Positions 3,850 through 55,000 of a stretch of 64,000 nucleotides of DNA are shown here, one piece after another. The stretch spans positions 35,536,250 to 35,600,249 of the forward strand of contig OX453273.1 in assembly GCA_949710005.1 (NCBI GenBank), written 5' to 3'. Position numbers and translations under genes: made by a program. The notes under the pieces were generated by a model. The model was given only the letters and a program-made list of their open reading frames with translations, was not told the DNA's origin and did not search any database. Position 1 is the first letter of the stretch, and every line of letters begins with the position of its first letter. This DNA comes from Ricordea florida (lineage: Eukaryota; Cnidaria; Anthozoa; Corallimorpharia; Ricordeidae).

Positions 3850-4295
3850 TCTCCCTGCACCCAGTACACACCCAATTAAATAGATTAGACAAAGGAGCAA
3901 TTTATGAGTCTTAAGTTCTTTCTATACCCAGTGCACATCCAATTAAACAGGTTAGGAAGGAAGAACCTATACGAGTCTAAAAAAATAACGGAGTACTGAA
4001 ACTAAATTGGTTTGTTGGATTCTAAAACAGGTCTAGTGTTGTTTTCAACGAATGAATCCGTAAAAAGTCATGATCCTCTTTTACAGGACAGCTTTTCTCA
4101 GCGAAGTTCGCAACTAGGAGAATTGGCTTGATGCTAAGGAAGCGCGATAATAAAGGATACCTAAAAAAGAGCCGGGGAAAATACAGTTATTGTAATTGCA
4201 GTTGCATAGAGACGTGTCTCTCTACACCCCGTGCACATCCATCTTAAGTAGATGGGACAGGGAAAAACTAGACGAGTCTAAAAGATAACGGAGAA
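3850..4295. repeat. Diverged direct repeats (three copies)
   Basis: The phrase 'gtgcacatcca' followed by an 'acgagtctaaaa..ataacggag' block recurs near 3858 (partial), 3930-4000 and 4225-4292. The copies are diverged and unevenly spaced. This looks like an old local duplication. No coding content was seen. Confidence 0.55.
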
Positions 4296-37700: not shown

Positions 37701-40700
37701 ATACCATCCAATTTTGCTGTTATATACCACTATTACGCAAAAATAGTCATACTATCATCCAATCAAATCTCCGAAATTTCTTGGCTTATATTATAACAAA
37801 GGTAATACCATGGAGATTATTTAAGCAATAGATCACACTTTCTATGGGTTTACCGGCGTGATAACCCATGCGGGATATTGGGAGAACACGAGAAGAGCTT
37901 GTAAATCACGAGCCGAAGGCGAGTGATTTACAAGCTTTTCGAGTGTTCTCCCAACATCCCAAGTGGGTTATCACGCCGGTAAACCCATAGAAAGTGTGAT
38001 CTATTGCTTTTATAAAATAACTTTTAGTAGAATGGAGTCTTTGAGGTAAAAAGTATGCTTTTAGTACCGTGATCAAGTCATGTCTTCTCTCTAAAGTCAT
38101 CATAAGCCAATCATGACTCACAATTTAATAGCGCTGAACTTTCTCAAAACTCAGTTCAGTCAAACAACAAACAGCAGCACTTCAAAACACGAGTTTTTGC
38201 ACTCATTTCATGATAACTTATGAAAGCTGTTTTACAGGAAAAGTCAACACATATTCATGCGAACGTACAATGAAAGAATACGTTCGTGGTTTGTTTACTA
38301 CAGAAGTAGAAATTAATTGTACCTCGCAGCTGTATTTTGTTGAGTCGATCCGTAAGAATTTCGTGCTTACAGACGGAACTGGCAGCTATTGTAATGGAGG
38401 ACTTCATTCACTTTTAACAAGCCGCAGTGGTTTAAGATCTGTTTTCTGGACTTTATTGTGATCAAGAAATGCTGCGGTAACGTCATGGCTGCATTTGCGA
38501 AGTTGTCGCATCCCTGGTAGAAATCCTTCATAGGATCCTGCAGGATCCTCTAGGATTCCATAGGATCCTGTAGGATCTTGAATAGGATTAGGATCCTTTC
38601 CAGGATTTCAAACTAGGATAAGGATCCTAATCAGGATCCTGAACAGGATAAAGATCCTGATCAGGATCCTGAATAGGACAAAGATCCTAATCAGGATCCT
38701 GAACATGATAAACATCCTGATCAGGATCCTGAATAGGATAAAGAACCTAATCAGGATCCTGAACATGATAAACATCCTGATCAGGATCCTGAATAGGATA
38801 AAGAACCTAATCAGGATCCTGAATGGGGTAAGGATCCTAATGCACACTCTTGATATAATCCATAGGATCTTGATAAGATCTATAAGATCTTGATAAAATC
38901 CTATAGGATCTTGCTGAAGAATCTTGATAAGATCCTGTAGGATCTTGATAAAATCCTATAGGATCTTGCTAAAGAATCTTGATAAGATCCTGTAGAATCT
39001 TGATAAAATCCTATAGGATCCTGCTAAAGAATCTTCATAAGATCCTATAAGATCTCGATAAAATCCTATAGGATCTTGCTAGAGGATCTTGATAAAATCC
39101 TATAGAAGCATTTCCACCTTTCCTCTGATCGTGATGTAGCTGTTAGTTTTAATACCAGTTTCATGGTTCACTGACAGAGGGAGGGGATAAAGGGGGCAAA
39201 ATTTTATTGTCAGGTTCAATGAAATCAGTTCAAATAACTTTGAAATTGCAAATGCATTTTTATTAATTTGACCTTATCAAATTCAAATATATATGCTACA
39301 TGTGTTCCTCAAACACAAGTTTCTAAAGTCATGTTTTAATAAATTGACCAAAAGAGGCATTATGTCAATTTATTGGGTCGTGCATTTCTCATTTATGCAC
39401 TGTAGGTGTAAGACACTGTAGTTGTGAGACACTGTAGTTTCAGGTAGCATAACTATTTGGTCATTTTTGAGGTTGTGGCTCATTGTATACCATTCCTATC
39501 GTTAGGAACTTGCGACATAATGCATCAGAGGATGCACTGTACAATAAAATGTCTAAGCGTATTTTTCCTTTACGTTGCCTTTCTCCTGGGTACATGTATT
39601 GCTGTAGTCCGGGTCAGCTGCGACTGGAGTTCATAAGCTATCTCCAATCATCTCTTTCACGTCGATCGCCAACAAAATACCGCACCGCGCAACTGGAAGC
39701 TGATATTCTAAACAGGTCTTTTGTATTCGCTTTCTGAGCTTGGAAGACCAATAGAGCACTTAAAAGAACCTCGTCTTTCTGTAATTCCCATAAATTGCTT
39801 CTGAAGCAACAGCTAACACACCTCAATAATGGTCCGCCATATTGAGACAAGACTGCCGTCAAGGCCCTGGATCGAGATGCTTTGCTGCTGAACCAATCAG
39901 AGCATGCATATTTTCATGGCGGTAAACGCTGCTGGTCGTGCAGCGAGCTCAAGCAGTGAATGAAAATCGATGTAAACTTCCAGGTGTGGTACAGTACGTA
40001 CGTCGATTGAATCAAACGTTTTCGATGGCTTGGTGAGAAGCAAGGCCGTATAAATTAAAAAAGTTTTTATTTTGGAAGTCACAATCAAGATTCGTTTGGG
40101 AACCATTCAAAAGCGCGCAGTTCGTGGTGAGTACAACAACGACTTCCTTTGTTCACACATACTTTACGCTGCAGCTTAAAGTTAACTTAAAAGACAATTG
40201 AAAAAGGGCTGTGTGTTTATTTTGATGAACTTAAAAATTTTGCTGTGGAAAGGTCCTCAATAATATCACGACATAGTACAAAGTAAAATCAACTCGGGCG
40301 CTGCTTTATAGCTTGGTTTACGAACTTCATGCGAAAAGCTGGCTTACATTTGGCTTGAAAATCAAGCACCCTCCTCGATTTTCCTTTAGTTTTTCAATGG
40401 ATTCTGGTTTGAAAACTAGCAGAAACTGGAGCAAAAGGGAACACACGTAAGGAATAGTATAAATTTTTCATTTTTGTATCAGGACATTTTTGAGTCAGAA
40501 TTTCCGTGTTGATTTTGATTTGGTTTTGAGTACATGTTATAGCTAGATGCCCTCCCAGCTGTTCGTCTATTGTTTGGCATAATATATTTTGCGGAATTGG
40601 ACCTAGAACAATTACCAATATAGACCTAGCCCTTCTTCTGCAAAGATTTTAACCTTGCTATATAAACTACATATACATCTCACTGGGTATTTTTATATTA

Positions 40701-43700
40701 CAGATGCTGTGCAAGAGAAACCAAAATCGAGAGATAGCTAGATCAAAAGCAGCTAAGTCTTGATCATCATTGTTATTATGAAACAATATCTCGTCAGTCA
40801 GATCTTATTTTCTAAGTTTTGTTTCATGAAAATGAAGCTAACTACCACAATAACTACAAGGAGACTCATGACTTCATTGTTAATTTTTTTTGAATAAATA
40901 GTATAAGGTGCAGATTCAAAATACCAGTAGTGTTTGCTGTCTGAGGGTTACAGTGTCAGTGTGCATTACAAAAGAGACCCATATTAGTATATACAACTTA
41001 CCAAGATGTCCTGCACTTTTGATATTAATGGTTATATCAAAAGTAGAATGCCTGCATGTTGCATAGTATACTTTATTATAATTAAAAACTACATACTTAG
41101 TAAGAAGTAACCAAAAGTACTGTAATTTAAGTATACCTCTATTAGTACAGTTTAAGTCTACTTTAAGTGTAAGTGAAATATACTTTTTGGTTCTTAAAAG
41201 GTGTTCTGAATTCCAGCAAGATATCGACATCAATGAACCAAAAATGTTAAGATAAATTAAAACAGCATAGGCATACTTCTACTGCTGATTAACTGCAGAA
41301 TTCTTGTAAGAAAATTTTAATCTCTGTGCCTGGAATGTTCATCTATTGTACCAAGAAAAAATTTTAATAGGCTGATGAAAACCCATTTCCTCATACTTGT
41401 CCAATACTCTGACAAATTTATGCACAGCTTTGTATTGAAATACATTGCGTTGTATTGCATCGTTCTAGAATGCATTGTTGAACTCTTGTTATGGCCATAT
41501 AATACAGTACAATGCTACACATAATTAAAATTTGTTGGAGTATTGGACAACCCTCCATTTCATGAGCAGTCTTTATGCTCAATGCAGTTTCAGACTATAA
41601 ATACAATGAATTGGCATTCCAAGTACAATCATTTTGAATACAAGGTTATTTTTTTAGCAAACATTGACCTGTACAATAAATCCTTGCAGATGTTGATAAA
41701 CAAACTAATCTTTGTTGTTAGCTACATATAATGTTAATTAACCCTTTACTTCCATGCTCTGAGAAGCAATTCTCTTAGCAACTGCCATATATTTGGTTTT
41801 AAGTTAGTTGGGAGAATTTATCAGAAGAATTTATAATGTCTGAGTTGATCATTTCTGTGATTCTCATTAACAGTTAGCCATACTGATAGTACATTGCACT
41901 GTTCTTGTATGGAGAAGTTCCATGCTGTTCACTTCTGGGAGGTAAAGGGTTAATAGAAATTAGAACTGTCAATTCCTTGTGGTTAGTGTATTATTTTAAG
42001 TGCAAAATCAGATCTGTGTAGTTTAAGCCTTTGTAAACAACAGTTACGTGCTCTTTGAAAAGTTAATATTTGTCATAACTTGTATTATAAGGGTTGAATA
42101 AAATAATGTGTTATCAAGTTAGGTGCTTTTTCAAATGGATGCTTAATATACTGAAAGGGAACATGACATCAGAGGGATTTGTAAAGATAAGAAACAATCA
42201 GAATACTTATACGAATTTCCTAGGATCCTGTACAAGATCCTACACATTTGCCAGGATCCTGTACAAGACCCTACACATTTGCTAGGATCCTGTACAAGAT
42301 CCTACACCTTTCCTAGGATCCTGTACAAGATCCTACACATTTGCTAGGATCCTGTACAAGATCCTACACCTTTCCTAGGATCCTGTGCAAGATCCTACAC
42401 ATTTGCTAGGATCCTGTACAAGATCCTACACATTTGCTAGGATCCTGTACAAGATCCTACACCTTTCCTAGGATCCTGTACAAGATCCTACACATTTGCT
42501 AGGATCCTGTACAAGATCCTACACATTTGCTAGGATTCTGTGCAAGATCCTACACATTTGTTAGGATCCTGTGCAAGATCCTACACATTTGCTAGGATCC
42601 TGTGCAAGATCCTACACATTTGCTAGGATCCTGTACAAGATCCTACACATTTCCTAGGATCCTGTGCAAGATCCTACGCATTTCCTAGGATCCTGTACAA
42701 GATCCTACACATTTGCTAGGATCCTGGATAGGAACAGGATCTTGAACAGGATCTTGAACAGGATCCTGTAGGATCTTGTAGGATCCTACAGGATCCTACA
42801 GGATCCTAAGTAGGATCCTATAGGATCCTGTAGGATCCTACAAGATCCTAACAGAAAGACCTGTAGGATCCTGAAAGGATCTTAATCAAGATCCTATCAG
42901 GATCTTATTAGGATCCTATTTAGGATCCTAGGTAGGATTTCTACCAGGGATGTAACTTTACATGCTCGTACAGCGACCGATGGAAATATACCGAAGAAAG
43001 GTTTCTTTGCCGTAGACACATATTGGCGTTAATATTTGTCGATTTGTGAAGTCAGGTGGTTTGAGGTAGGTTATGGCATCAATATCACGGAATAATTTGT
43101 GCAAATGTTGGAAAAAACCAGCCCGAAACTCTGACATCTTTCATCATCGTTGGCAGCTTGTTTACAACCTACAGCGGCCGATTTTTAACCATATCTTGAT
43201 CAGAGATCTCTTTTTGGAACAATTTCTTTCATTAAGGAATTTAATTTTGACATAAAATAAATCAAGAATGCTAAAACTATCCGTTTTGTTGCTGGTTGGC
43301 ACTTGGTTAAGTTTTCCTAGAGACTTTCTACACCAGAAATTCACACAGTTGTCTTTCTCTGCGATTTGGCATCGTCGTGAAATGTAAACTGCTTTCCAGC
43401 TTTGTACTTTATAACTTCTAAAGCTATGGCAGTCGCGAATTGTGAGCCTTGTGACGCTTTTAAGATTAAGAAGGGCTGGGTAAGTAACTTGTTCTGTTTT
43501 TTAGCCTTTCTAAAATCGTTGTTTACAGATCAATAGCGGGTTTTGTTTATGGCTCGTGGTCCGGATGCCTTTTTCTATGGGTTTACCGGCACAATAACCC
43601 ATAGGTTTTCAACCAATCAGCGCGCATGTAGTATCTGAGTTATTTTATAAAATACAGTAATACAATGTACCACATTGTTAACCTCAACATTCAGAGGGGA

Positions 43701-46700
43701 GGGAGGATTTATGATGCGAGTTGTGATACTTTCAAGGGCAAAAATTGGCCTATTGGTCCCACATTTTTTCCAAACATTGTAGCTACCTACAGCTGGGCAC
43801 AATTATATAGCTATTATTGATCACAACATCACAATTAGAAATTCAAAAGCTACTTACCAAAATCTCATCCAGCAGCTCATAAATAAGAGGAAAGTTACAT
43901 TTGATTGACTCCTCATTAAGAACTCCACAGTAGTCTTTACAAAGATTAGAGACCCTGAAAGAAAACATCATACAGTATGTACATACATGTATCTCTTATT
44001 TTCTCCAAGAGATTATGGCAGTCTGATTGGTTCTTATCAAGGTTTGGGCAGTTTTCCACTTATCAGACCTCCAAGCCAAGATATAATATATATATGTTAT
44101 TTACCGGGCAGGTGGTCCGTATGGGAAAAAACTGTGCCCAAGGTCTTGAGTACAGCCCGAGGCCGAAGGCCGAGGGCATTACTCAAGACCAAGGGCACAG
44201 TTTTTTCCCATACGGACCAACCTAGACCGGTAAATAACTTATTTATTTTTTCTGCTTGTTTGCTTTTTTTTCGCAACAATTTCAATTTGCCGCGAATAGC
44301 GCGGATAAAAATCCGGACCGTGGTCCGTATCGTAAAAGGCTGGACTGGTTACGAGCGCGCGATTAGCCAATCAGATTTGAGGATTTGGGATTCCAGCCTG
44401 CTGCGATGCTTGAGAAAAAAATAAATATTAGTATCACCCAACTAGTGGACTAATGCAAATGCCACAATCTGATTGGCTACACTACTAGAGGACTACTACT
44501 AATTGTCCTCTAATAGCGGAATTCGTGACGCTTTCTTCCATTTTATTCCCAAATAAATATTTCTTCAACTGGCATTTGCTAACTTTATTATTGCCTTTTC
44601 TGTCCGACTAGTTGGGTGATACTAAAACAATTAGACCCTTTGCCCTCAATGGCCACAGGTCAATAGTCCATTCGACACGGCCAATTGGGCTATTGACCCG
44701 TAGCCCTTATGCCGTAGCTCTAATTGTTAATCATAATTATATGGCTACTCAGGGAGCAGGCAACATGAGGCAAACCATGAGTTCTAATTGGCCACCTAAG
44801 CAGGCATATTGATCAGTACGCTAGGGACTTCCTGCATTGTCCCATGAAACAAAAAAAGAAAATGGCCATATAAAAAATCCTTTATTGATCAAGCTTATTC
44901 CACAATGTAGTCAAAGTCAACAAAAACGCAACCATCTGTTGACCTCGTGTTTGGTCAACAATCCATGCTGAAGATAATATTTGTGATAACACTTTTTCAA
45001 GGCAAATTAACATCATTAAATATGCCAGGTTAAGGTGTCTTCAATGCTTTCTCATACATTGTATACCACAACCTACACAAGTTATCATGAATGGTGTACT
45101 CTTACATAGCACGCAGGTTTTCCTGAGCCATGTATCTTCCAATTCCCTTTTTTCCCTAACAAACCTACTGTACCAACTCCCTTTTCACTACAAGGGACGA
45201 CAGACAAAAACAAACATTTTAGCAGCATGGCCAAATGCGTTTGAAGCAGTTTGAACAAGGTAGGTCGTAATATCAAAAATAATTACTGATTAGAAGGGGA
45301 TAAGCACCCACCCTTTCAACATAAGAACCTTAAATTCAAAACTCTCTAAGCACTGTACAAAACAAATAAAATTTACTTGTATAATTTATTAGAGTTGATA
45401 CAGGGCTAAAAATTAACTCCAGTGCTTGGTGGCCAGTCGGGCCAGTTTCCTTGAGTTCTTAGTGGCCCATCCCAAAATGAAGTAGCCCTCGATTTTTATT
45501 TTAGAGTCACATGGCAATCACAAAATTTTTAGCCTTGGTTAATAGTAAAACTCAGAATATTCAGGTATTAGAGAGGGCATTGGGATTTTCAGTTTTGAAG
45601 GTTTTGGCCATTTTTTGGGGGGGAGGGGTGGGGGGATTGGCTTTTGCACTAAAAAGCTTTTTTTCTCTCTGTTTCGATTTGCAGTTTTTCTGATTTTCAG
45701 CATTTGATTTTTGGCAAAAATAGAAACATTATTTTATGGATTTAGTATTCAACATTTTGGTGTTTTTTTGAGAGCTACAGGATAGTTTTTTGTGATTCCA
45801 AAATCCTCCAAATATCTAATTGAAATTCAATATAGGATTTTGGTGAATTTTAGTTTTAGAGACTAGATGAGGTATACCCCAGATGTCAACCAAATAACAG
45901 ACTGATATGGGTCCATATTAAAGGTTTTTGAGATTGAAATGTGTAAATCTCTGGTTTGGTATTTTGCTTTATGTCTTGTATGAAATCCATAGCGTTTTTG
46001 AGGTTTTAGGTGATTTTTAGAGCAGTTTTCAGTTTCTTCTGGGTCCCATTGGCTTCCCAACCCTCCAGGCAGGTGATACTGCAGTGTCAGCATAGCAGTT
46101 AACAACATACCTGCTTAAAACTTCAACTGCCAAAGCAGGCGAAATATTAAACTTTGTAGTGCAGACAAAGTACAGTCCATTTCTCTTGACAAAAATATAA
46201 TTGATGCCATCAACATTCTGTAGAAAAAGGTATATATAAATTCCAAAAATAATACTATTAAAAGAGTTTGCCATCTGTTATGAATCGCAAATGCTATAAT
46301 CTTTAAAATAAAAGCTTCAATGTTATTAAGTATTTTGACAATAACAATGCCAATCCGACCATGTTGACCTTTTACTGAAGTTCCTGTCTAATAGAGATAA
46401 TAGTGGATAGTTACTCAGGGCTCTGTCGTTACGTTTATAGTTTCGTTTGATTGACATTGCTATCAATATTACAATTGTTTTCTTTCCCTTCATTATCACA
46501 ATTGTTATTATTCTTGTAACTATTATTACCATTATTACAGTGTGACTACAGTACTCGAACCATTGGCTACCCAGATAAATTATCATACTAATTTTGAATA
46601 ATTTTTATGTCTGTTTTTGACACTGAAGAAAAGATTTCTGGCGAATTTATATCATCCGAGATGATTCTTTTTCAATCTTGATATGTTTTGCACAGTTATA

Positions 46701-48664: not shown

Positions 48665-49094
48665 GGCGGATTACTGTTTTGAAGTTAACCGCTGATCGCG
48701 AAGTAAGGTGATCGACGACTTGACAGATACGAGAAGCTCTGGGAACCAGAATGAAACGCGTTTTACTTCACCCCCATTTTTGCTTTTTTTCGGTGTGAAA
48801 TTGCAATTGAGGACTTCCTGTGTGTTTGTCTAACTGCTTTTACAGTTGAATAAAATGATTAGGTATTCAGAGGTTATTCACTGTCTTGCACTTGTTCAAT
48901 CTGTTTGAATTCTGGAACAAAAGATAATGCAAGTGAAATCACTGACTCGACCGGCACATGCGCAGATTTGCTCCCGTGGTCTGCTGGGGGTCGATACTTT
49001 CTGCGACGGCACGTGTGGTTGTTCAAAGTTGAGATTTTGCGCCCTTTCTTGTCCACGATTTAAGCATCAGGTTCAGCAAGAAGTAACTGAAAAC
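48665..49094. promoter_or_regulatory. Probable bidirectional promoter, AP4M1 and hnRNP U-like
   Basis: The two start codons face away from each other with 430 bases between. The interval has CpGs, no clear TATA box, and an NRF1-like CATGCGCAG at 48957-48965. The reading frame of the hnRNP U-like first exon is open back to an ATG at 48927, but the start at 49095 fits the family. Confidence 0.6.
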
Positions 49095-52000
49095 ATGAGT
49101 GAACTTGACGAGGCAGCTATAAAGAAGCTCAAGGTAGCGGAACTGAGGACCGAGCTTCAGAATCGCGGCCTTGACTCGAAAGGGAACAAACCCGTTCTTG
49201 TTGAACGCTTGCTCGCAGCAATTTCAAACGGGTCGGTCGAGGAGGCACCCAACGACAAGATAAACGATGATGCAGTGGCGGACACATCAGAGCAAGATGA
49301 AGAAAAGCAACCGTCTTCTGGTGCGGAACAAGAACTAAAGGATGGAGAGGAGGATGTTTCCGAAACTGCTGTAACGCAGGAACCCGAGTCTTCTAGCTCA
49401 ACCGAAACGGCGACCGCTCCACCGACGGAAGACGCGCCGATGGAGGCAAAAGAAACGAAAGACGAATTGGACTTAACTAAAGAAGGGGAAGGAGCAGATG
49501 AAACTGTGTCGACTGAAGAAAGCGCTACAGACGTGAAAGACGATGAAAAGAGTACAGATAAGCCGATGGAAACAAGCGAAGAAGCCGGAGATTCAACATC
49601 GAAACAGTCAACTAGCGAAGGTTTGTTGTGTTTGCTATTACTTACTTGTACAATGAAGTTTTATTCATGCTTATCAATTTAAAAGAAAATTCTAGTTTTA
49701 AAGATTTGTTAAATGACAATTGGTGGTATTTGTCGCTTGTGTTGTTACTTGAAATCGCGCGCTGTTTTGTGAAATCCGTTTAATGTAACCTGATACGTAC
49801 AAGTAGTTGCAAGCTATAAATTATGAATGCTGCGGCAATTCACGAAGATTTCCCGAACAACAGCATGTATAACTTAATAGAAATTATGTGTAACTGATCA
49901 TCGATGATACCTTAGGCTTGGTGAAAGGATTTACCTCCATTCACAGGACAAACACATCATGGTTCGATTGTTGTATCGGTTTGGTATCAATTGTGCATTT
50001 CATTTTAACAAGTTCTACGTGGAATGATCGAGCTGATTACGTACTCGCCCATCACTAACTGATCATTAAGTTTTCCTATGTTGATTCATAGTTCACGTAT
50101 TTCTAGTCTTAAAAGTAATTAAAATGTCCGTAATAATCCCAGTCGCAAGTTATTACGAAAGCTTTGGCTAGATTTCCGCATAACCATATACTTCTTTATG
50201 CGCATGCTCTAACTGTACTGTCTCACTCTTCAAAAAAAAATTTGCACATTCATTAGCCTACAGCATGCATAATGAGGTATGGGGTGATACGGAAATGTAG
50301 CCAGAGATTTTTGCTTAACCTAGGTGGAAATGGGTTACCCCATCTGTATTTGAAACAGTTATGAAGCCACCTTCAACTTGTCAATCATCAGTTAACGGTG
50401 ATGACACTTCGATACACAAATACCGCTGTCCCAACAGGGTCCACTTAAGACTCTGAAACTTAACTGATTAATGCAAATGACAATAGCACTTTATGAATTG
50501 CTCCTTTGGATATCTCAACAAGCAGTACTTTGCAAATCTGGATTGTTTTTTACCCGGGCTCAATTTAAACAAATGAAATTCAGGTAAATTGACTTTTAGT
50601 GTAGTATAGAGATGTAACAGTTTTAAAACTACTCCCACGTGAAATTTAACCCCAAATGACTTGCATGCTTGTGGAAGAAAGACTACTGGTAGATATAATT
50701 GTTTACAAGTTGTGAGTAAGGAAATGAGTTACTTTTCTGATGCAATGTTAGTAGCTGTAGAAGATGTTGTAGTAATTGAAGGTAATCTGTCACTTGGCAG
50801 TAACTGTTCAATGAGATTTTACAAGAAGCTATTGTATTTTTAAAATTGTGGCTTTGGAACCTTAACTGCTAGTTATTTCCTACATAGATGTTTCACCTTG
50901 GCTGCATGTCTTGAAGCAGTATATGTATTTTAGGAGCGAAAAACAAAAGTTTGTTGTTTAGGGTTGTTTGCTTCTAAAACGGCATGGAACCCTTTAAAAG
51001 TTTTAAATTACTTAATTACAGAAGAGGTGAAGATGAAAATGGGAATGGTTATGGAAGGAGATATCTAGCAAGAGTTCAGAGGCTTGCTGTTACACACTCC
51101 AATCTATTTTGATGTACTTACATCACATGCTTTGCTGTCAGAGTTTCATAGCTGCAGATTTTGTTTTATCTTCTTTCAATTGATATGTGGACACCACACA
51201 GTCAGCACTCCAAGCTGAGCCATTTTGGTTGCCTTGGCGAGTACAGAAAAAGAATTGGCAACCAAAACTGTCAGGAAGGTTTCCAATTTTGGGGACCTAT
51301 TTCCTGGCTATTTGATTTGTTTTGATATCTAGACAGGGCAAACAACCACAAAACTGTTCAGTTCTTCTTTTCGTAATTTCTGGCTCTTTAACCCTTTCAC
51401 TCCTAACTTGTCTGGACTCAAATATCACCTTGGTCCTGAATTAATTAGGCTTACATCACATAATTATGAAGTACTGTTTATTTCACCTTAATAACTTTAA
51501 AATACTAGAAAAAACCCTATTGCACCTAAAAGAAAAGTTGTAGTCAAGAGAATAAGCTATCGCACATGTCAAATCGGTCTACATACAAACACCTATAAAA
51601 TAAGAAAACAATATTTTTAATTAGCACAATTTGAATTTCCCGCGCCATGCTGTTGTCCATTCACGGCTCTGAATGAAACAAATCTACTTTGAGGCTCAGG
51701 AAAACTTCTAAATACAAATTTAAGGTACAAAAAATTGTCAAAGAAATAAAATAATGTCTAAATGTCAGTGTCTGAACCGTTATTTTCACCCTCTGGGCGA
51801 AGAATGCTATGCCATTCGGCGAAACAATTTCCCTTACAAAGAATGACCTTGCACCCGCGGCAGCCAGCTCGGGATTCGCGAGGCCCATCGCCCTTTTTGT
51901 TCGCTATTTTAAGCCTGAGACTTCTGGCCTTGCAGGCTTCACAGAGCAGCGCTTTCTTATTCTTTTGAACAATTCGATCATATATATGATCCATAAATCC

Positions 52001-55000
52001 GCAAGGACAGGTTCTGCTCGTGGATGGCCAGCACGCTTTCGTTGAATAACAAGCTTTAATCGGTAGAGTTTGTGCTCTGGATGATTCGGTGCTGGTAGTG
52101 TTCTTGGGTCTGAGATGTGAAGATATATATCGCATTAGTTCGAGAAATCTGTCCCGAAAGAAAACTTTCGCTGTGCTTGTCTGATGGAACCGCTCAGGCG
52201 AAGACCAATAAAGGAAAATATTTGGCAACTTAATAATTCCCATCAAAATCAGAACGCCAAGGAATGCTTTGATTCCTGTCACAGAAGTAGACAAAAATTC
52301 GCGTAGCATTTCTTCTCGGTTGAGGTTGATTTCAGCCGTGTAACTGTTGTTGTTGTTACTGACAATTTCAAACAGGTCCGCTGTAAACAAAGGCAAGAAA
52401 TAATCTAGAACGGACGAATACAGCGGCATTCGTCTTACAAGGCCAACATGTTCGGTAAACTCGGGTGTTTCTACATTCTCGGGGCTTTCATTCCACTGAA
52501 TTTCATCGCTTTCCTCCGATGATTCTTCGTCTTCCATCTCCTCTTCAAGTGACACTTTGTCACCATAGTCAAAATCTTTACGCGTTTGGCGAAACATTTC
52601 TACTTCTTCTCGGCTAAAGCCGAGAAAGTCACCATTATCAGAGTCATCGAACAGCGACGCCATTTTTCGATAACAGCGAAAAAATCGCGAAGTTTAACTT
52701 CAAAATTCTCGGTGAAAGCGACGTTTCACGGGGAAGTCGTGTATGAGAAAATTTCTATTTGGCACGTGCTGGTTTCTTTACTGAAGGTCACATGACCTCA
52801 GCATTAACCAATGAAGAGAAAAGAGCTGTTGAACTGAGCTACCCCAAAGAAACGTCGCTTGACGTAAATCGGACTTTCGCGTGACACGAGCGTCACGTCA
52901 ATTGACGTAAACAGGAGTGAAAGGGTTAAAGACTTTATTTAAAGTAAACATCATTTTCCGCCAAGGTATTCGCAGTGTTGCATCCAGAGTGCGCCATTGC
53001 ATCCTGGGACATAATATTTTGCCTTTGGACGCCCTAAAATACTAAGGAGGGGTCCTTGTGGACACACAAACTTCACACTTGAAATAAATGCAAATTCATA
53101 AATTGAAAACTTATGAACCACACGCTTGTTATATTTATCTTAACAACATTGCTATTTTTCACATACTTAATGTTGATTGATCCATCAAGAAAATGCATGA
53201 CAAAGAGAGAATTCTAGTTGATGTATTTTCATTTCAGCATCAGTATAACTTGAAAGTAATACGTTTTCACATGACTTTCAAATCCTGAAGATGACGCGGT
53301 CAATGTTGTTCAGTAAACAACTTGGCATAAAGTGAAAAGCCAGTGAACTAAATTCCAGATTGGTCGCAGAAGTCTAAGTCTGCATGTCATTTTGCTGCCA
53401 ATGGCTCCGCAATTTCAAATGGATTGAGTTCAAAGTGTGGAAAATGTTTTGTTCCAGTAGTATAGACGCGAAGATAAACAATACGCATGCCATGTGTGGA
53501 ACATTGAACTTCCAAGGATCAACACTGGAGCCTCAGGCCAGCTGCAATGAACATTGCACTGCCTCAGGAGCTCAAGTCCTTTGCCGATCCATGAATGCTG
53601 CAACCGAGAAAGCTTGGAGCCATCACAAAAAGGCGATTATGTGCGCAAAGAAGACTGCTTACTTTGTAGCAAAGATGAATCTTTTGATCTCACACTATGG
53701 AGAGATTATTGAATTACTTCCTTGGCATTCATTTTTACTTAACCGTTCTTTCTGATGCACAGTTGTTACCAAATGACTTATTTTGGTGTTCACTTGCTTC
53801 GTCTTTTTTAGTTCTGACTTCCCATAACAAAACCTTTTAAGGGAGCCGTAGTGTCACCGAAGTGACTGAAGCAGCATTTACTCGGCCCAGTAATCGCAGT
53901 TTTCAAAATGGTGATTAAGAAAACCAATTGAAGGCTTACAGAAGGGAATAAAAGTTGACATTGAAAGCAATAAATTGTTCTTGATAGTGTTTCAATGAAT
54001 TTCAACCACCAACAGAATTTTACATTATCAAATTAATAGGTGATCGATATCATCTTTTATGATAGGAGCCCCAAATATTTGTCCAAGGGGCCCAGAGGAC
54101 CCCCACCCTCTAAAACCTGGGTGCAACACTGTATTTGCTTGCGCAGCAGCCATTTTGATACAGTATGGTCAGCGGTTTCCCATTCATTTAATATGGTGCA
54201 ATGTTTACAGAAAAGTGAAAACTGTTCAAAAATAAAAAATAAAAATATAATAAATGACGACCAAAACAATATCCCTGATGACCTTTTTAGAAGTGAAGGT
54301 TGCCAAAAGGTGACTTAACGAAAAACTTAGCTTGCAGCACTGACAGTAGTTGAGAATTTCAATAATTTTGTGTTGTTTCTTTAACTTACTGTGGTTTCTC
54401 AGTTGTAAGACGCACTCCTAATTTCAATATTGTTGTGGTAATTTGTTTTATCAAGTCCAAAACTGAAAGTTTCACCGAAACCTTTGGTTATATGATGCAA
54501 CCTAAACTACAGGAAAATTTTTCTTGATGTTTCCCTTTATGAAAACGCTACGTCATTGAATTCTCTAATTAGTGTCTTTTAATTGATGGAACAAAAGGAA
54601 CTACCTCACACAGTAATGAACAAAAGAAGAAAAGTCACACGTCTTGATGATACACAAGTCAGATTGCACAGAAAAAAAAAACTAGTTCCATTTTACAGCA
54701 TCAAACATCACCCATGCATTTGAATATTCAGTTGCTCAACTTCTCTCTGAGAGCATTCACCAGTTAAAAAAGTGTATATTCCAAAATGATTTTCCTGTCA
54801 TGCAAAGCACTAGCTGTCACATGTACGATAAAGGTGAAGTTGAAAGTAGTAGCACAGGCCAAAACCATTAACAACCAATGAGTTGATTGCGAGTGGGAAT
54901 TTTAGAATCCAAAATTTTGGTAGGAGGAGTTGCACCAGTCATCGACAGCAGTTCTCGCATGTTTACATCATGTGGTCAAATTGCACACCATTTTGGTATT

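Follow-up and report, generated by a model that had tools for sequence, protein, structure and literature searches.

The locus analysed here lies in a stretch of 64,000 nucleotides from Ricordea florida (termed the window) and features two arrays of short palindromic repeats on either side of a non-coding centre. It raises the question of whether the arrays are neighbouring satellites or the arms of one mobile unit and, in the latter case, to which kind of transposon the unit belongs. The original prediction had favoured a foldback element, with arms in opposite orientation, an 18-base capping repeat and perhaps captured host DNA in the middle.

The feature is real and constitutes one mobile unit (Table 1). 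We consider it a non-autonomous cut-and-paste transposon, a copy of a young family, which is most likely mobilised in trans by a TRC-type CACTA (EnSpm) transposase; the probability of this reading is roughly 0.78. The family is new, and its kind is already known.

Table 1. Features of the element, in window coordinates
Feature	Position	Strand	Basis
Whole element, non-autonomous DNA transposon, 4,438 bp	38512..42949		Inverted ends, 2-bp duplication, dispersed copies
Left terminal inverted repeat, 15 bp	38512..38526	+	Core CCCTGGTAGAAATCC exact
Right terminal inverted repeat, 15 bp	42935..42949	-	Core exact, opposite strand
Target-site duplication AT (2 bp), left copy	38510..38511		Pair analysis and a relative's empty site
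Target-site duplication AT (2 bp), right copy	42950..42951		Pair analysis and a relative's empty site
Left subterminal array, AGGATCCT-like palindromes in 10-, 30- and 55-bp units	38532..39105
Right subterminal array, AGGATCCT-like palindromes in inner units of 31 bp and outer units of 10-12 bp	42215..42930
Centre without recognisable coding sequence, common to the family	39106..42214		Open frames and scored copies

Boundaries of the element and copies across the genome

The 18-mer CATCCCTGGTAGAAATCC is found exactly at 38509-38526 (+) and 42935-42952 (-), and it has no other matches in the window at up to three mismatches (0.04 expected). While the predicted cap is thus present at both borders, the true repeat measures 15 bp; the 18-mer is made up of this repeat, the AT target duplication and an outermost C/G match that arose by chance. 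The window copy starts with CCC, ends with GGG and is flanked by AT on each side.

The genome searched comprises 537.8 Mb on 48 contigs, with the window on C2. The 18-mer yields 95 matches at up to two mismatches, with variable bases at the three positions preceding the core CCCTGGTAGAAATCC. The core itself has 96 exact matches distributed over contigs C1 to C16 (reversed control, 0), and arrays accompany these ends in the copies read. Exact ends pair up facing each other in 39 cases; these pairs span 140 to 7,890 bp, with a group of 25 at 4,071 to 4,757 bp. The gap-free copies L007 and L010 align with the window element over its full length, at 93.5-100% identity per 200-base bin, indels aside; L008 and L009 were excluded from this alignment, since each contains a 5,000-N stretch.

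These two stretches, at L008:4079-9078 and L009:1906-6905, comprise exactly 5,000 N and are either assembly gaps or withheld sequence; one of them starts directly after an array. Three exact ends, one on the plus and two on the minus strand, fall within 5.4 kb at C10:14437050-14442402 (L022), a locus which includes a 1,125-bp deleted copy and where copies are possibly nested or rearranged.

The surroundings of the element in the window harbour SAP, HSF, DAN and piggyBac-like domains, including a heat-shock-factor DNA-binding domain at 20666-21295 (-; E 2e-24) and a piece of a piggyBac-like transposase at 51761-52693 (-; DDE_Tnp_1_7, E 3e-12), the latter lying about 2 kb downstream of a SAP-domain exon at 48909-49679. 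A palindromic repeat at 44086-44246 recurs in the flank of another family copy (94% over 72 bases), and by eye a hairpin of similar look is visible at about 37835-38005.

Target-site duplication and recent movement

Comparing the flanks of several copies, as had been suggested for defining the target duplication, gives a length of 2 bp. The duplication is present in 24 of the 26 pairs from the 18-mer search (shuffled mean 4.5; maximum 13 in 10,000) and in five of six additional pairs read from loci, and hence in 29/32 pairs in total, with 11 different dinucleotides. Exact duplications are missing from C2:21621493 and C2:25389180, each one base off, and from C9:10670351 (L009), a pair that crosses the 5,000-N stretch and was counted as a miss. 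The 32 pairs leave eight of the 39 exact-end pairs outside the reading and include C3:27776532, which is not among the 39 because its right end carries one mismatch. Three gap-free copies had at first suggested a terminal AT without duplication, or a Spy element; both candidates were dropped when the 95-match search revealed the 2-bp duplication. ISL2EU (PHIS) was rejected as well, given that, according to the portion of its description available to us, it requires an AT-only duplication, in contrast to the 11 dinucleotides seen.

An insertion-free site, proposed earlier as a check, is available for one insertion in the form of a related repeat. The element at C4:20352560-20356837 interrupts a repeat, of which an uninterrupted relative is 80-86% alike, and the filled site GGAAGAT|element|ATCTCATTG compared with the empty GGAAGATCTCATTG confirms the 2-bp step. 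Together, the target duplications and this empty site establish insertion.

The elements at C1:31574269-31578763 and C2:25389180-25393925 share 1514/1515 bases at their left ends, while their flanks are unrelated (65/200). Such identity of one end despite unrelated flanks indicates recent movement. This pair of elements differs more at the right ends (208/300 identical, ungapped).

Superfamily assignment and search for a transposase

The assignment to CACTA is made from ends, duplication and layout only. Animal TRC elements, a CACTA/EnSpm type, begin with CCC and are bordered by 2-bp direct repeats, according to the sections of the Schistosoma report accessible to us (7 of 14 copies; PMC1636069). 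The same sections give the Tribolium end as CCCTAGTAGCACCG... and also as CCCTAGTAG..., and the Aedes end as CCCAGTCAAC. CCC ends and 2-bp direct repeats are likewise described for Hydra Spongebob (EnSpm-4N1_HM) in the available part of PMC4298943. The window element, whose inverted repeats CCCTGGTAGAAATCC begin with CCC and which shows a 2-bp target duplication, resembles these Schistosoma (SmTRC1), Tribolium, Aedes and Hydra elements as far as those partial accounts go, and SmTRC1 also contains a tandem-repeat region. Whereas the Schistosoma, Tribolium and Aedes elements encode Transposase_21 in the sections seen, the window copy lacks recognisable coding sequence; it also differs from the TRC elements by carrying arrays of one palindrome at both ends.

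A more general trait of CACTA elements, short inverted ends accompanied by subterminal repeats that extend over several hundred bases, is found in the window and in the copies read; this trait is drawn partly from soybean Tgmt*, as covered by the accessible text of PMC2613891. There, Tgmt* is described with 13-bp inverted ends and palindrome-forming subterminal repeats, four in 159 bp on one side vs 24 in 732 bp on the other, and its authors recount that the TNPA protein of En/Spm recognises such subterminal repeats. The short inverted ends and the unequal palindrome-forming repeats on the two sides liken Tgmt* to the window element; by the same partial account, its CACTA ends, 3-bp duplication, length of 20.5 kb and coding capacity set it apart. 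The family is probably a cousin of the plant CACTA elements. Full-text literature searches retrieved no animal family of CACTA elements that carries arrays of GGATCC palindromes.

Transposase_21 has 61 matches in the genome, many of them in long open frames, two of which were confirmed by Pfam. Throughout the whole genome none of these matches is linked to family ends, the smallest distance to an exact end being 69.5 kb (the distance comparison covered 59 of the 61 places, and the remaining two adjoin these). The transposase neighbourhoods L071 and L072 contain neither these ends nor a AGGATCCT array, and a scripted search for end pairs around two transposases returned nothing convincing. Upstream of a 921-aa Transposase_21 frame, L072:3490-4050 harbours diverged CATTAATG palindrome repeats, with five exact octamers between 3491 and 3964. 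These repeats are missing from the related copies L069 and L070, from which L072 diverges at 4051; the copy comparison yielded that point only.

An autonomous partner was also sought via two ends with unfamiliar interiors (L060/L065 and L015/L066), and none was found. One of them, at C3:30711370 (L060, L065:71), is an unpaired exact end bearing a short array; no second end was located within 10 kb, and no transposase frame was recognisable by eye. The longest pair, at C6:1707438, owes its extra length to unrelated sequence that enters at element position ~2416, and no autonomous partner was seen in the 2 kb read.

The element might instead belong to another cut-and-paste superfamily, known or undescribed, which also generates a 2-bp duplication and combines the same anatomy with a different transposase. 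Such a reading draws on the outcome of the searches made, which covered the genome's Transposase_21 matches, the unfamiliar interiors and part of the longest pair and revealed no coding copy bounded by these ends. It is nevertheless unlikely, considering that CCC ends plus 2-bp duplications are the marks published for animal TRC elements, as far as the accessible sections go, and that this genome contains CACTA transposases.

Palindrome arrays and orientation of the arms

The octamer AGGATCCT occurs in 40 exact copies in the window, where 0.69 are expected, and all of them are confined to 38532-39022 and 42222-42929. Tandem Repeats Finder reports left units of 10, 30 and 55 bp and right units of 31, 12 and 10 bp. 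Octamer counts and repeat units alike bear out the two arrays about 3.1 kb apart.

Their supposed opposite orientation did not hold up. Since AGGATCCT is a palindrome that reads the same on both strands, array orientation is undefined. The left and right arms align about equally well inverted (473/554 identical) and direct (467/546), as compared to 390-409 identical bases in three shuffles, and therefore show no appreciable inverted orientation. Clear inverted pairing is limited to ~31 outer bases (94%), and the longer repeat units differ between the arms. Each arm folds on itself as a single strand far more strongly than shuffles do (z -12 and -16), because the unit is palindromic; this folding is no proof of function.

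A Mutator- or P-kind foldback element, as originally predicted, would have long inverted tandem-repeat arms around an unrelated centre. The repeat arrays at both ends, the non-coding centre and the inverted ends agree with that description, but beyond ~31 bases neither arm is an inverted copy of the other. The accessible part of PMC4079207 describes the Drosophila virilis foldback Tetris, placed in Mutator by its authors, as similar in having tandem repeats in both ends, a non-coding middle and no autonomous copy found, and as different in its 220-bp repeats within truly inverted arms and its duplications of 8-10 bp, vs 2 bp here. Even a 503-bp relative (L040; C1:29715981-29716483), which has the same ends, symmetrical 133-bp arms that are 94% complementary and a different centre containing repeated GGGGATTTGA-like motifs, shows a 2-bp duplication. 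A foldback origin is accordingly very improbable. Rehavkus, which shares a minisatellite near an end, was rejected, as it requires a 9-bp duplication where 2 bp are seen; its available description further gives inverted repeats of 26-400 bp and a PHD finger in the transposase.

Two independent satellites, neighbouring by chance, can be set aside almost entirely: the three-unit array pattern is common in the genome (1010 matches, against 173 for the reversed pattern, an imperfect control that tandem units can partly satisfy), but 50/50 of the forward matches listed out of the 1010 (C1 near 2.49, 7.57 and 21.99 Mb) lie beside exact ends, and ends, duplications and whole-length copies refute this origin at the window locus.

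The reading as a single transposon is also borne out by the arm types. Typing of 47 distinct end sequences gave 20 left-type, 21 right-type and six neither; L051 is absent from this set, as its first 1,000 bases equal those of L043, and was typed from a separate comparison. Each of the 12 long elements whose two ends were read combines one left-type with one right-type arm, and the inverted repeat caps the arrays in every case. The observation that might have overturned the one-unit view, arrays never occurring together or caps absent from their borders, was thus looked for, and the outcome favours one unit. The first palindrome unit (at most one mismatch) begins 20 bp from the end in 41/41 typed ends, and array spacing is nearly constant close to the end, while inner units are highly variable in number.

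Centre and short relatives

None of the eight open frames in the centre matches Pfam above the cut-off; two weak matches fall below it. The stretch 39600-40160 was scored in 40 of 164 first-look candidates, i.e., the window copy and 39 others at 92-98% identity (3/40 partial), and at least 40 copies thus exist. Of the 40, 38 are separated from an exact end by no more than 6 kb, another lies at 6.8 kb, and the remaining one is 3.6 kb from an end with two mismatches. With 40 or more copies, every one close to a family end, the centre was not captured by the window copy alone, and the suggestion of captured host DNA finds no support for this copy. An older, diverged host source of the centre may exist, with 40 of the 164 candidates scored. 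A part of the centre had also been described as CpG-richer. This contrast is real, with observed/expected ratios of 0.77-1.33 in four 250-base bins (39501-40500) vs 0.00-0.49 in the element's other bins; these four bins are, however, near the window mean (0.77), and it is the rest of the element that is CpG-poor.

Apart from L040, copies of 140 bp (L019) and 178 bp (L046) consist of hardly more than ends and palindromes, and all three have a matching 2-bp duplication. A further 140-bp unit (L064), 77% identical to L019, has a right end that differs from the core at two bases. Deletion after insertion would give the same picture, and therefore the short copies do not prove that ends plus arrays suffice for movement.

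Proposed mechanism and significance

For a transposon moved in trans by a CACTA transposase, the 15-bp end repeat would serve as the cleavage site, and the palindrome arrays are candidate binding sites. An element-encoded protein might bind the palindromes and pair the ends, like TNPA on the subterminal repeats of maize En/Spm. The fixed spacing of the outer array could alternatively reflect recent common descent; inner units would be gained or lost through slippage or unequal exchange. The helper is presumably an autonomous relative not found, or since lost from the genome. A bolder and rather doubtful extension takes the arrays as the working part of a CACTA parasite: copies rich in binding sites would outcompete coding copies until the autonomous element is lost, with the 140-178-bp copies as the end point and the centre as a regulatory segment carried to at least 40 places.

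The family provides a clean CACTA-like case in an animal, where end repeat, target duplication, empty site and subterminal arrays are all readable, and its near-identical copies point to recent movement. The arrays, nearly constant outside and variable inside, form a natural series that bears on the question of how many binding sites a transposase needs, as well as on the conversion of transposon ends into minisatellites.
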